The notes beneath the pieces are model-generated. The model was not told the DNA's origin and made no database searches. It was given only the letters and a program-made list of their open reading frames with translations. A stretch of 20,343 nt of DNA from a virus, in the IMG/VR virus record IMGVR_UViG_3300047560_000116, positions 1 through 20,343 of that record. One strand, given 5' to 3'. Of the stretch, positions 3,422 through 15,363 are shown piece after piece. How positions within the stretch are numbered: the first letter of the stretch is position 1; each line of letters starts with the position of its first letter. A program made the position numbers and the translations under genes.

Positions 3422-3952
3422 TTACTCCTGTGTTTGTGGAATTGGAGTGTCAGGGCTATTAGCCCAAGCAATCGGGAATACCGCAGCAACTTGATCTACT
3501 GTAGTTGAGCTTGTAACCGCATTAGCAGCCGTAGAAGCCTGTGTGCGAATAGTCTGCCTCCATGTATTCCATGACTGAGGTACTGGATATACACCGCCTG
3601 ATTCTACTGAGCGAACTACCATCCAATCAGTAGGTTGCAATAGGGTATAGGCTTGCTGATTGATGTTGTTTACAGAGGTAGATTGGATTGTTACCAAGTC
3701 TTTTGGAGTGCTTGTAAAGTTAATATCTACTTGATTAGTTTGTGCGTTATATGAAGGCGCTTCTTCTGTCACCCAGTAGTATTGGTCATTAGGGCGAGTT
3801 CCATAAACTACATCCACCATGCCGATAGCAGCTTTTTCTTCTGGGGATGACAAATTTACCCAATTAGGAGGGTAATCAATGCCATTCCATGTGAACTGTG
3901 AACCCGCTGGAATCAACAGTTGAATTATTCCGTTTTGTACGATTGCAAACAT
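3422..3952 (-). CDS. Tail fibre-associated or fibre-assembly-like protein
   Basis: This 176-residue protein follows the large tail fibre directly. Its N-terminal half (residues 1-60) has a compact domain with FTWNGIDYPPNWVNLSSPEE and a VDVVYG segment. This pattern of a small domain about inputs such as Trp-Asn-Gly and Pro-rich turns is seen in phage tail-fibre assembly or XkdW-like proteins. The C-terminal half is helical with DWMVVRSVESG, a Trp-x-x-Trp-Arg stretch near residue 130 and a Thr/Ala-rich helix, similar in style to fibre-assembly chaperones. A good ribosome binding site (GAGGT) overlaps the upstream stop. A chaperone or small structural tail role is inferred from position and general pattern. 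Confidence 0.65.
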   Translation of the reverse strand: MFAIVQNGIIQLLIPAGSQFTWNGIDYPPNWVNLSSPEEKAAIGMVDVVYGTRPNDQYYWVTEEAPSYNAQTNQVDINFTSTPKDLVTIQSTSVNNINQQAYTLLQPTDWMVVRSVESGGVYPVPQSWNTWRQTIRTQASTAANAVTSSTTVDQVAAVFPIAWANSPDTPIPQTQE

Positions 3953-10964: not shown

Positions 10965-11975
10965 TTATAGTGAAATAGAGTTGTAGCCAGAAACACGGGT
11001 CATTGACTTAGGCTTGGTGCTCACTAATTCAGCGATCATCAAGACTGCGCCAACATAACCGATCTGCCAGTTTGGAAGTGTTGACTCAAAACCAGTAAAT
11101 ACGAAAGAACCTTGATCGTGGATGTAAAGGCTCAAGTAGTTGCTGTTAATGAAGTAAACAGTACCTTCTGGGCAATATGGGTCTGGATAGATTGGAACAC
11201 CAGCAACCATCAAAGCACGGAAAGCTGCTTGAGGACCGTTAGCGTCACCATCAAAACCGTGTCCTGGGGTGATTACATACTGCTCTTGACCAACGAAGTC
11301 TTGTGCCAAGAGAGTCCATGTACCGAAACCGCAAACACCGAAAGTAGGTACTTCTGCACCGTTTTTAACAGTACCAGAAATATACTGGAGGATGTTCTGA
11401 CGAGTTGGGTTAACAGAACCAGCATTGTAAACCTTAGACTTCCACCATGTATAGGTAGAACGGTTGATGTTACCGTAAGTAGTCAAGTTTGTGCCATCGT
11501 CAATCGCACCAGGCAAACCAATGAACTGCTGTGTATTGGTGTAGTTGGTGTAAAGAGCGGTAGCCATTGCATCCATCATCACATTGGTTGCATCGTTCAT
11601 ACGAGCTTCAATCAAAGGAATGATTGCGTAGTCTTGCTGAACTGCACCTTCCATACCGAGGAACGGTACAGGAGCGATCATGAGCTTGAGGTTGAACTCA
11701 GCGTTAAATGCACCTTGCTGAACTGATGGCTGGTTGAAAGAACCAGAATAGTCAGACCATTGTGCGTTAACGAACTGAGCGCCTTGAACTGGCACGGTTA
11801 CTTGGGACACACCGCCTGATGCTTGCTGACTGTTAGCAATCAAAGCAGCCATCAATGGTGTAGAGTTGTAAAGTTGTACGACCAGCTTGGGGATAAACGC
11901 TCTACGAGTTACATAAGTAAGTTCGTTGTATTGCGAAGTACCCGCTGCTGGAAGAATTCCTCCGCCTATTGGCAT
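10965..11975 (-). CDS. Major capsid protein
   Basis: This 336-residue protein has the size and context of a phage HK97-fold major capsid protein. The N-terminal arm (residues 1-60) holds YVTRRAFIPKLVVQLYNSTP, the style of start seen in capsid proteins without a large delta domain. It is followed by a beta-rich region with GGVSQVTVPVQGAQFVNAQW and a helix-rich middle with MNDATNVMMDAMATALYTNY, matching the spine helix. The C-terminal half contains a strand pair, VPIYPDPYCPEGTVYFINSN, which resembles the conserved P-domain end. The preceding gene looks like a scaffold and the downstream genes are small head proteins. The ribosome binding site is GGAGAT about 7 bases away. Capsid identity is strong by gene order and pattern. 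The fold assignment is inference. Confidence 0.88.
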   Translation of the reverse strand: MPIGGGILPAAGTSQYNELTYVTRRAFIPKLVVQLYNSTPLMAALIANSQQASGGVSQVTVPVQGAQFVNAQWSDYSGSFNQPSVQQGAFNAEFNLKLMIAPVPFLGMEGAVQQDYAIIPLIEARMNDATNVMMDAMATALYTNYTNTQQFIGLPGAIDDGTNLTTYGNINRSTYTWWKSKVYNAGSVNPTRQNILQYISGTVKNGAEVPTFGVCGFGTWTLLAQDFVGQEQYVITPGHGFDGDANGPQAAFRALMVAGVPIYPDPYCPEGTVYFINSNYLSLYIHDQGSFVFTGFESTLPNWQIGYVGAVLMIAELVSTKPKSMTRVSGYNSISL

Positions 11976-12768: not shown

Positions 12769-13272
12769 TTACATTGGTTGAGGTTGTGGCATACCACCAG
12801 GGGCAGGTGCGCCAGCTCCAGGAGGAGGCATACCAGCTCCAGGCATCATGCCAGGAATAGCAGGTGCTTGAGCCATTGCCTTACCCTCAGGAGTAGCACC
12901 ACCAGCTTGAGGGAGGGTTTGCAACATCTGTAAAATTTCAGCAGGTTGCAATTCTTGAGCCTTCTGTTTTTTCGGACCAAGGATACGATTCAAAGTGCCA
13001 ATCGCATTGAGGATGGACTTTCCTTCTTCTGAGTCTGAACCAACAGCAGGTAAAGATTGTTCTAGTAAATCCTGAGCCATAGACAAGTTAATCATGGCTG
13101 CTTCACGGTTGCCCATCTTAGGCTCTGGTGTTGACATCGGTGCACCCATTGGAGGGTTCGATGTATCGCTCATTTGCGGAGCATTTTCTGGAACGGGAGT
13201 CGCTCCCGCTGGAGTAGCGCCATCACGCTGACTCTTAATCATTTGCATTAGCTGATCGGAAGGTACGCTCAT
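12769..13272 (-). CDS. Helical and Pro/Met/Gly-rich protein at the head of the capsid operon
   Basis: This is a 167-residue protein with three parts. Residues 1-55 are Pro/Thr/Ser/Met-rich and disordered. Residues 56-115 are helical (REAAMINLSMAQDLLEQSLP and GKSILNAIGTLNRIL). Residues 130-167 form a low-complexity Pro/Gly/Met tail. I chose ATG 13272 rather than a GTG at 13296, because AGGA lies 6 bases before the ATG and the promoter's predicted start point is near 13290, inside the longer version. It is the first gene after the promoter at 13297-13324. Small head proteins with disordered Pro-rich tails sometimes act in head assembly, but this one is not recognised. Confidence 0.7.
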   Translation of the reverse strand: MSVPSDQLMQMIKSQRDGATPAGATPVPENAPQMSDTSNPPMGAPMSTPEPKMGNREAAMINLSMAQDLLEQSLPAVGSDSEEGKSILNAIGTLNRILGPKKQKAQELQPAEILQMLQTLPQAGGATPEGKAMAQAPAIPGMMPGAGMPPPGAGAPAPGGMPQPQPM

Positions 13273-13296
13273 TTCATTTCCTAAGTAATTGCTCAC

Positions 13297-13324
13297 ATAC
13301 TAATCTTAATACACAAGTTGTCAA
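13297..13324 (-). promoter_or_regulatory. Sigma70-like promoter driving the capsid-tail half
   Basis: On the minus strand, TTGACA (13324-13319, a perfect -35 match) is followed by a 16-base spacer and TAGTAT (13302-13297, 4 of 6 matches to TATAAT). Predicted transcription starts near 13290, 18 bases before the ATG at 13272. It sits in a true intergenic gap, with no competing gene on either strand. It would let the host polymerase transcribe the capsid and tail genes separately from the terminase-portal part. It is the clearest promoter in the window. Confidence 0.65.
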
Positions 13325-13382: not shown

Positions 13383-13398
13383 AATCCTAAAAAGGATT
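13383..13398 (-). other. Hairpin overlapping the stop of the basic micropeptide gene
   Basis: AATCCT, loop TTTT, then AGGATT on the minus strand form a perfect 6-base stem. It begins in the stop codon of the micropeptide gene at 13397-13438. A weak terminator, a stabiliser of the upstream mRNA end, or part of a regulatory cluster with the two neighbouring hairpins are all possible. The T-run lies in the loop and not after the stem, so a standard terminator call is not supported. Confidence 0.45.
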
Positions 13399-13438
13399 AC
13401 TTGCGTGCTTTACGACCTTTACGAGCTTTGCGTGCCAT
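13397..13438 (-). CDS. 13-residue basic micropeptide MARKARKGRKARK
   Basis: The gene reads MARKARKGRKARK: after Met it is four tandem tripeptides, ARK, ARK, GRK and ARK. Eight of its 13 residues are Arg or Lys. A strong Shine-Dalgarno AGGAGA lies 8 bases before the ATG. The repeats use different synonymous codons (CGC or CGT for Arg; AAA or AAG for Lys; GCA or GCT for Ala), so the DNA repeat is weaker than the peptide repeat, a sign of selection on the peptide. It follows a second 13-residue basic peptide gene. Such peptides could bind nucleic acid or act in packaging, but no role is known to me. It could be a chance open frame, though the ribosome binding site and peptide regularity argue against that. 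Confidence 0.6.
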   Translation of the reverse strand: MARKARKGRKARK

Positions 13439-13494
13439 TTTAGATTTCTCCTGTTAGCAGCGGTCACCTATTTCATGGGTAAGGCAGCCACAAC

Positions 13495-13510
13495 CCTTCT
13501 CCCGTGAAGG
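13495..13510 (-). other. Small hairpin between the two micropeptide genes
   Basis: CCTTC-ACGGGA-GAAGG on the minus strand forms a perfect 5-base stem with a 6-base loop, just after the stop of the first micropeptide gene. No U-run follows, so termination is unlikely. The rest of the 13439-13516 gap holds the ribosome binding site of the next micropeptide and nothing else I can support. Confidence 0.35.
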
Positions 13511-13516
13511 AAAACT

Positions 13517-13558
13517 TTATCTACAGCCTTTACGACCTTTTTTAGAATACTTTTTCAT
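13517..13558 (-). CDS. 13-residue basic micropeptide MKKYSKKGRKGCR
   Basis: The gene reads MKKYSKKGRKGCR; seven of its 13 residues are Lys or Arg, and it contains one Cys. A strong Shine-Dalgarno AGGAG (13565-13569) lies 6 bases before the ATG. It has the same length as the next micropeptide gene and shares a KGRK core with it, which suggests a duplicated or related pair. It follows the 53-residue basic protein by 13 bases. I know no function for it. Possibilities are binding of DNA or RNA, or a small structural role. The reading is supported by the ribosome binding site, the matched length and the shared motif. Confidence 0.55.
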   Translation of the reverse strand: MKKYSKKGRKGCR

Positions 13559-13571
13559 TTCTCTCTCCTAT

Positions 13572-13733
13572 TTAACCACGCATTGACCTACCGTAGCTCC
13601 TAGTTGCAGGACCACGGTTGTAGGTTGATTCTCTTTGGACTCGGTACTCAAGTTGCGCTGGCTGGCTTCCACGCTTTAGGCTTTCAGTAGTAACTTTAGG
13701 TTGATCTGCCTTAGGTGAAATAGCTTGTGCCAT
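13572..13733 (-). CDS. 53-residue basic protein directly after the portal gene
   Basis: The ATG at 13733 lies one base after the portal stop (TAATATG), so translation is coupled. The protein starts MAQAISPKADQPKVTTESLK and is rich in Arg, Ser, Gln, Tyr and Gly. The C-terminal third ends in NRGPATRSYGRSMRG, an Arg/Gly/Ser-rich tail. It is probably disordered and basic. It could bind nucleic acid or a capsid partner. I do not recognise a family. The gene is followed by two still smaller basic peptide genes, so three basic products stand in a row. Confidence 0.65.
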   Translation of the reverse strand: MAQAISPKADQPKVTTESLKRGSQPAQLEYRVQRESTYNRGPATRSYGRSMRG

Positions 13734-13734
13734 A

Positions 13735-15363
13735 TTACGCTGCCTTTTTCTCTGATGATTCAGACTTTGGTTTTGGTTGCTGGCTCATTTGTTGAGTAGC
13801 TCCCTTTTCCTCAATCTTCTTCAATTTATCTTTGAGTAATTGTTTCATCGGAGGTTCTAACAAGTCAAGTAGGGATTCTTTGTCTATTGCACCTGCCTTG
13901 AACAAGTTGAACGCTAATTGCTTGGTATCTTCGGTAAAGATCGGGCTATTGGAGTGTGCATCCACTTTAACCACATAATCTTTGGTAAATTGCTCTGGAA
14001 TGAACGGTTGACCTTCTGAATCAACAAATTTAGTTGGATCATAGACTTGCATAGCCTTGAGATACAAGGTTGCGACCTTTTCCAAGCTATCTTCGACAAT
14101 CAAAGCCCGTTTTTTGGCTCTTGAGCTACCAAGACGAGCTAATTGGCTTGCATGACCAGTAGAACGGACTCCAGCTTCGCCTTTTCCTGATAAAACATTG
14201 GTAATACCCGATGCTTCTTCAAACATAGCATCTACTTCGTGGATTACCTCAAATAAACGGTCTGGCATCTGTGGTGCAAGGCGCTCTGCCTTAGCATTTG
14301 GCATATCGGTGGATAAAACACCCCCTGCACGGTTAAGAGCAAAGTTCTTTTCATCCAAAATGCCTGAGAAGCCTGTTAATGCGGTAGGAGGACTGACTTG
14401 TTTGGACAATAGATCCAAAATATCGGTCATCCGTTGGTTACGGAGTTCTTGAAGAAGTATTAGCTTCTGTGTTTCACTAGCACCCCAGTAGTAGTTGTAT
14501 AAAGGATTTGGGCAGATCTGCACAAACGGCAACTCACCCTTCAAGAATACGGTTGCACCAGGTCTGTCGTAGATAATCACCCGTGGAGAGGCGATTGTGA
14601 CTACCTGATAGTCCTCAATGTCATCATTCCACACCCACAGTTCGTGCATCTCGATCAAATCTTCGGCAACGGTAGGGTTGTAGCGGTTAATACCGTACAA
14701 ATCCATGTTGATGTTGCCGTAGATCGTAGGATTGGTTTGGCTCATCACGATACGGTTGACCGCACTTGGAATATCAGATTCTTCCTTTTTACCACCTGAG
14801 CTTACACGCTCTACGATAGATTCACGCTTAGGATGGGAATACAGACGGGCATATAGCTCCGACTTGGTAATGTAGTAAGTGTGGACAAGGGCTTCTTGCC
14901 TGTCTGTATAAGGGGTATCTTCACGCAGAACACCAATATCCTTAGGCTCGACCATGTATGGGTTGATGCCGTTGCGGATAACGAGCTTAACGAAGGTGCT
15001 GTTATAAACCAATGACCATGTTAAGGCGCTTGAAAATACTTGGTCTGCATTGGAATTTAGCCACTCATCGTTTAGGGCTTGGGTTAATACTGGGGCTTTG
15101 CGATGCTCTAGGTGGTTAACTGACGCACCGAGCTGAATTGAAAATCTAGTTGTTTCGGCTGAATACAGAAAGCTAGTAAGCTGATCTAGGTGAGGATTGA
15201 TCTTGTTGAAATACGCTGGAGGCTGCTCTGGCGCAGCCCCAAATAAGAAATAAGACCTAAATGTTGTGTAATCCCCTTTCCTATCCTCCCGTGTCACTAG
15301 ACACTTTGCCATGATGTCTAGGTAGAAATCTTCACGATCTTCGGGATTGGATGGAATTCTCAT
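13735..15363 (-). CDS. Portal protein
   Basis: This 542-residue protein has the size and place of a phage portal, the dodecameric ring at the capsid vertex through which DNA is packaged and exits. The N-terminus has LDIMAKCLVTREDRKGDYTT and YFNKINPHLDQLTSFLYSAE, a typical portal start. The middle holds a beta-rich wing with IIYDRPGATVFLKGELPFVQ. A helical stem region follows with WGASETQKLILLQELRNQRM, and after it ILDLLSKQVSPPTALTGFSG. The C-terminal part has a long helix (SSRAKKRALIVEDSLEKVAT) and ends in a Lys/Ser/Gln-rich tail, the usual crown-side end. ATG overlaps the previous stop as ATGA. TerL lies upstream and the scaffold and capsid genes downstream, the standard order. Confidence 0.88.
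   Translation of the reverse strand: MRIPSNPEDREDFYLDIMAKCLVTREDRKGDYTTFRSYFLFGAAPEQPPAYFNKINPHLDQLTSFLYSAETTRFSIQLGASVNHLEHRKAPVLTQALNDEWLNSNADQVFSSALTWSLVYNSTFVKLVIRNGINPYMVEPKDIGVLREDTPYTDRQEALVHTYYITKSELYARLYSHPKRESIVERVSSGGKKEESDIPSAVNRIVMSQTNPTIYGNINMDLYGINRYNPTVAEDLIEMHELWVWNDDIEDYQVVTIASPRVIIYDRPGATVFLKGELPFVQICPNPLYNYYWGASETQKLILLQELRNQRMTDILDLLSKQVSPPTALTGFSGILDEKNFALNRAGGVLSTDMPNAKAERLAPQMPDRLFEVIHEVDAMFEEASGITNVLSGKGEAGVRSTGHASQLARLGSSRAKKRALIVEDSLEKVATLYLKAMQVYDPTKFVDSEGQPFIPEQFTKDYVVKVDAHSNSPIFTEDTKQLAFNLFKAGAIDKESLLDLLEPPMKQLLKDKLKKIEEKGATQQMSQQPKPKSESSEKKAA

Follow-up and report, generated by a model that had tools for sequence, protein, structure and literature searches.

Downstream of the portal gene of an uncultured phage lie two reading frames of 13 codons, and the question that they raise is whether frames so short and so basic are genes and, if so, what their products and the RNA between them might do. 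The DNA analysed, hereafter the window, is a stretch of 20,343 nt (IMG/VR record IMGVR_UViG_3300047560_000116). An earlier note on this DNA had proposed two 13-residue basic frames with AGGAG Shine-Dalgarno (SD) sequences, a shared KGRK and a 53-residue basic protein directly before them. All of these are present on the minus strand: both frames have their SD, both peptides contain KGRK, and the open reading frame (ORF) of the 53-residue protein runs from 13733 to 13572. The second peptide is, as described there, a tripeptide repeat, (ARK)(ARK)(GRK)(ARK), written in mixed codons (GCA/GCT, CGC/CGT, AAA/AAG). The placement between portal and capsid genes holds on the portal side, but on the capsid side the next gene after the second frame is scaffold-like and the capsid gene lies three genes beyond.

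The locus and its neighbours

13735..15363, minus strand: portal protein gene (PHROG 1216, E 3.7e-9; Pfam SU10_portal, E 3.8e-13), the upstream anchor for fetching relatives
13572..13733, minus strand: 53-aa basic protein, the upstream neighbour (KADQP[RK]V[ST]TESLKRG family; KADQPRVSTESLKRG core, basic C-terminus)
13569-13565, minus strand: SD AGGAG of A, 6 nt upstream of its ATG
13558..13517, minus strand: micropeptide gene A, MKKYSKKGRKGCR, ATG to TAA, 13 aa
13497..13514, minus strand: hairpin HP0 (TTTTCC..GGGAGA), directly 5′ of PK1
13496-13462, minus strand: H-type RNA pseudoknot PK1, leader of B, identified by covariation and linkage to B
13496-13493 (GGGT) with 13480-13477 (ACCC): PK1 stem S1
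13489-13482 (GGCTGCCT) with 13469-13462 (AGGTGACC): PK1 stem S2
PK1 loops: L1 TGT, L2 T, L3 ATGAAAT
13452-13448, minus strand: SD AGGAG of B, conserved, 9 nt upstream of its ATG
13438..13397, minus strand: micropeptide gene B, MARKARKGRKARK, ATG to TAA, 13 aa
13327..13361, minus strand: second pseudoknot-like element PK2 (CCTCCC..GGGGGAGGG..CCCCC), 3′ of B
13324..13297, minus strand: sigma-70-like promoter TTGACA-16-TAGTAT of the scaffold-like gene, 10/12 consensus matches
12769..13272, minus strand: scaffold-like protein gene, downstream of B (homologues begin with M[SGA]VP, the ORF as listed with GTG at 13296)
10965-11975: major capsid gene (PHROG 9953), three genes beyond the scaffold-like gene

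Searches with the 53-aa protein gave no match in PHROG and none of significance in Pfam; the gene occurs in most relatives and is absent from L206 and L208. An extra charged gene of 55-58 aa (MK[NST]PEQ[KR]ENEPAM..) lies between it and the portal gene in L039, L054 and L056-L060. The scaffold-like protein matches neither PHROG nor Pfam, and a scaffold role is suggested by its position ahead of the capsid gene. The sigma-70-like promoter separates B from this gene. Most relatives conserve TTGACA-16-TAnnnT at the same place, so that a promoter inside the head operon follows the micropeptides; in L206 and L208 consensus scans gave no promoter score, and TTGACA boxes were noted by eye. PK2, which resembles an H-type pseudoknot, stands immediately 5′ of the promoter, after B or, where B is missing, after A (L019, L089, L091 and others). 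Its 3′ stem covaries (539 with its own partner vs 467 ± 8 with permuted partners), a variant in L019 reads TTCC-TA-GGGTAGC-GGGAA..GCTACCC, and the element may terminate the upstream transcript or protect its 3′ end.

Recurrence of the two frames and selection on their peptides

Searches with the portal protein retrieved 80 viral loci, two annotated phage records and six MAG contigs, and more than 200 IMG/VR contigs were fetched for the lineage. In a tblastn search of 50,697 phage records the portal protein found two records only and no isolate, and the MAG bins of its relatives were mixed (Betaproteobacteria, Nitrosomonadales, Alphaproteobacteria, Legionella, Saccharibacteria); the lineage is large and made up of uncultured phages of freshwater type. 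Matches of 24 bases (E near 5) in T-even prohead core genes were treated as chance.

A and/or B occupy the same locus in 37 of the 39 dereplicated portal relatives with enough sequence, 20 carrying both, 13 A only and 4 B only. L207 (69% portal identity) has neither near the portal gene, and a match to the B pattern is absent from its MAG, in which the contig is incomplete; in L074 a distant basic micro-ORF, behind another structured leader, lies further downstream. The earlier note had named relatives lacking the frames as evidence against them: most relatives keep at least one, while L207 lacks both, 13 of the 39 lack B and 4 lack A. Its description of the genes as matched likewise survives in part, since both are real but each occurs without the other and the pair is not fixed. 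Neither gene is universal and therefore neither is universally needed; no essential role is claimed. Among distant relatives, MARKSRRGKRKAKR with an SD is found in L076 (10416-10461) and L074 (9077-9122), behind a different structured leader of several GC-rich hairpins and with a terminator-like hairpin 3′ of the ORF.

Homologues of A, 10-15 aa long, were found in the same position at 168 loci, nearly all with the SD core, and their consensus in the group is about M-Y-x-K-x-x-K-R-G-R-K-[TSAC]-[RC]-R. The C-terminus varies (TRR, SRR, CRR, GCR, ACR, SCR), with Cys recurring at two adjacent positions in several clades. A divergent A-like micro-ORF, MMACGSRNKRRYR, sits in the A position just 5′ of PK1 and B in L265 (~3810-3860; IMGVR_UViG_3300002092_000140). 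Homologues of B came from 152 loci in the first set, plus loci from a search by RNA pattern. A degenerate pattern for the B peptide matched at least 120 viral stretches; among the matches listed, every readable one is a micro-ORF with an SD and not a longer protein's tail, and the 53-aa or scaffold neighbour motif accompanies all but one.

Under strict criteria (ATG start, 9-18 aa, K+R of 50% or more, SD core), A and B are the only qualifying frames in the window. In 300 dinucleotide shuffles of the whole window such ORFs arose at a mean of 0.003 per window against the 2 observed, and no shuffle had two, which rules out chance frames. Hydrophobic lysis peptides and type-I toxins were set aside, as neither A nor B has a hydrophobic stretch.

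Comparison of related phages for an excess of synonymous over non-synonymous change, suggested in the earlier note, revealed that excess in both frames. Substitutions were counted from matched non-overlapping pairs in which no sequence was used twice. For A, 108 unique sequences in 52 independent pairs gave 142 synonymous and 102 non-synonymous changes where chance would make 23% synonymous (pN/pS 0.21, p about 5e-33); shifting the reading frame of this DNA to +1 and +2 raised pN/pS to 2.0 and 2.6, and a non-coding control of the same length, the 42 nt just downstream, gave 1.07. For B the tests were limited to loci retrieved through the portal or through RNA letters, because loci found by peptide pattern are biased, and pN/pS was 0.245 (p 5e-5) at portal-fetched loci, 0.09 (p 4e-5) at RNA-letter-fetched loci and 0.25 (p 2e-5) at loci fetched by either. 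Since pN/pS is low in frame while shifted frames and adjacent non-coding DNA are unconstrained, these patterns of substitution indicate that selection acts on the peptide and, as had been proposed, not on the DNA repeat; the frame controls rule out conservation of the frames as DNA repeat or as RNA only. Arginine in B is encoded by CGT or CGC in 238 of 240 codons (99%), a count that includes peptide-pattern loci found with a pattern allowing CGN and AGN, compared with 49% in the structural genes of the window, and this bias suggests high expression.

That the DNA is kept for RNA structure, with the frames incidental, draws on the abundance of conserved RNA structure in this region, yet the constraint is frame-specific, pN/pS is near 1 in adjacent DNA, shuffling predicts 0.003 such ORFs, and readable B-pattern matches are all micro-ORFs with no long-protein tails; such an artefact retains hardly any probability and is refuted for practical purposes. 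Because near-all-positive peptides recur across the group, one of them always behind its own RNA structure, A and B are very probably real protein-coding micro-genes and not chance frames.

The expectation that standard annotation would miss them proved right in the two annotated relatives, which list neither and instead have minus-strand hypothetical genes over part of the region. These public hypothetical proteins lie on the strand opposite the micropeptides (L083, 4740-5038, and L082, 5779-6039; MW202753, MW202825) and are probably spurious gene calls.

A pseudoknot leader that accompanies B

The earlier note's reading of the peptides is borne out, but it overlooked that B has a structured RNA leader of its own. 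A conserved non-coding element, made up of a hairpin, HP0, and then the pseudoknot PK1, separates A from B. By eye, the HP0 stem is kept while its letters change (TTTCC/GGAAA, AATACC/GGGTAT, TTTCAC/GTGAAA). Across 81 dereplicated copies of PK1, the strands of S1 and S2 pair better with their own than with permuted partners (0/2000 each). Because L3 varies in length and MAFFT misplaces PK1 rows, covariation was also scored in 40 sequences of equal spacing, in which 91% of cells are paired, two-sided changes number 26 vs 4.8 when shuffled, and the covariation score is 0.204 vs 0.083 ± 0.009 for shuffled and at most 0.148 for slid versions. This subset was chosen at the spacing where S2 pairs best, so the permutation test is the fairer control. 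Automated parsing of PK1 gave wrong pairings in a few rows (e.g., L114, L092, L185 and L036). The centre of S2 is always special, with U-G/G-U accompanied by C-G or a C-A mismatch, or with a UU/UC mismatch.

A search of 2.9 million viral contigs by the letters of PK1 alone found 58 stretches, and B follows in 57 of them, 17-22 nt downstream; the contig of the remaining copy ends too early to show B. The ATG of B stands about 17-25 nt after PK1. At dereplicated portal loci with A only, PK1 is absent (a regex match in L061 proved false when inspected); L005, L070 and L205 carry PK1 though the regex missed it. PK1 is present where A is absent, in L015, L055, L206 and L208, which rules out a recoding pseudoknot acting on A. 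In L206 (53% portal identity) and L208 (44%) the pseudoknot and B survive without both A and the 53-aa gene; in L206 they stand alone after the portal gene, with S1 AGGT/ACCT and S2 GGCTGATT/AATTGGCC, and in L208 S1 is AGCAG/CTGTT and the peptide is MARKARKARKSRRKSKR.

Of the independent pairs on the portal tree (188 loci), about 9 of 9 show S2 centre type and peptide type switching jointly (median p 0.004), so PK1 and B are kept together as a module. Coevolution of RNA and peptide could produce such joint switching, and simple linkage within about 60 nt could do so equally well. Searched against Rfam up to E 5, the window region yielded nothing beyond a chance match to a nematode sRNA (E 3.5, well short of gathering); seven relatives gave no gathering match, and L206 gave only chance matches on the antisense strand. 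On this comparative evidence PK1 is a conserved pseudoknot family that has no Rfam counterpart and is dedicated to B.

Possible roles of the peptides and their leader

In arginine-rich-motif peptides (lambda N, HIV/BIV Tat, Rev) a basic stretch of 10-20 residues binds structured RNA; those stretches are domains of larger proteins, whereas here the basic stretch is the whole predicted peptide. For A and B we infer translation, binding to RNA or DNA, feedback and a role in the head. Both would be short peptides, mostly K, R, G and A, made alongside head-assembly genes, and these late-expressed polycations would bind to nucleic acid while heads assemble or DNA is packaged. The end of PK1, about 17-25 nt before the start of B, would fall at the 5′ edge of the expected ribosome footprint, and the pseudoknot may set the amount of B produced. 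The simplest route would be feedback: once in excess, B would occupy PK1 and prevent initiation, in the way that T4 gp32 and ribosomal protein S15 act on the pseudoknots of their own leaders.

The model as a whole, coding micro-genes whose late polycationic products include a B tuned by PK1, is supported by in-frame selection, PK1 covariation, PK1-B linkage, CGY bias and position; that neither gene is universal and that L207 lacks both near the portal counts against it, and we place it just short of an even chance. Its mechanistic core, nucleic acid binding by late polycations with PK1 setting the level of B, most simply by feedback, is plausible but tentative. Neutralising a genome of roughly 35 kb with 13-mers needs very many copies, which counts against a bulk role. 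It is rather doubtful that a free-standing polybasic peptide of 12-13 aa represses its own translation through a dedicated H-type pseudoknot; PK1 does not overlap the SD and is not followed by a long unstructured A+U-rich tract like that in T4.

The closest parallels are T4 gene 32 for autoregulation, the Downstream-peptide motif for anatomy and J/VP8 for composition. In 2010, autoregulation through the T4 gene 32 leader pseudoknot was called perhaps the only viral example, S15 being a cellular case (PMC3014915). Those leaders also hold H-type pseudoknots and the T4 and rpsO-S15 genes encode nucleic-acid-binding proteins, but the product of B has 12-13 aa and is not a folded protein, and PK1 lies near the SD of B, with only about 17-25 nt of mixed composition between it and the start codon, in contrast to the long unstructured A+U-rich tract of T4.

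PK1 may instead be a riboswitch, or a passive element for translation or mRNA stability of B (a standby site or 5′ protector), that binds no peptide. Letters of S2 (GGCU, central U-G/G-U or UU/UC) and a near-invariant A in L3 are strongly conserved beyond pairing, as would fit ligand binding, and there is a precedent in the Downstream-peptide motif, a structured pseudoknot leader that precedes short conserved ORFs of 17-100 aa showing synonymous substitution (PMC2864571). Like PK1 and B, that motif (RF01704) and the glutamine-II riboswitch combine a pseudoknot leader with a short conserved ORF; RF01704 is, however, cyanobacterial and marine, its peptides are not described as polybasic repeats, and PK1 has different letters and no match to its covariance model. 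As no Rfam riboswitch matches PK1, the controlled gene is not metabolic and no alternative pairing for an expression platform was seen, a leader of this kind is a serious possibility but a minority one.

A separate possibility concerns the peptides, which may be small virion proteins, packaged and coating the DNA or lining the capsid, like microvirus J/VP8. The J protein of phiX174 and VP8 of gokushoviruses are basic proteins several tens of residues long, whose C-terminal anchor is buried in the capsid (PMC11281519), and A and B resemble them in being very small, Arg/Lys-rich and encoded among head genes, with a codon bias in B suggestive of high expression. J/VP8 come from ssDNA phages, though, whereas this is a dsDNA tailed phage; A and B, at 10-16 aa, are far shorter and end in RK, RR or CR with no buried aromatic anchor, and both are missing in L207, so that a virion role is on the unlikely side. 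Less probable by far is that the ORFs act only in cis, an inert peptide being translated to regulate the scaffold-like gene by coupling or as a leader peptide. Short ORFs with strong SDs just 5′ of a major assembly operon would suit it, but purifying selection falls on residues, the scaffold-like gene has its own promoter 3′ of B, the distance to the downstream gene varies, A or B can be absent and a different gene follows B in L206; a classical leader peptide or attenuator was rejected on the promoter, the gene in L206 and the absence of antiterminator pairing by eye.

A large catalogue of predicted, overlooked small phage genes exists (Fremin et al. 2022, Cell Rep 39:110984, as cited in PMC11364881). 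Here, sequence evolution alone reveals strong protein-level selection on genes of just 10-16 codons, shorter than gene callers usually accept; they are missing from the annotation of the two annotated relatives and belong to a phage group represented by hundreds of environmental contigs. A conserved pseudoknot family outside Rfam, one-to-one with micropeptide B, makes a compact RNA-peptide pair. If B does regulate itself, it would be an unusually small RNA-binding autoregulator, and its feedback with PK1 would be a further viral case of translational autoregulation by a pseudoknot, in a widespread group of phages.
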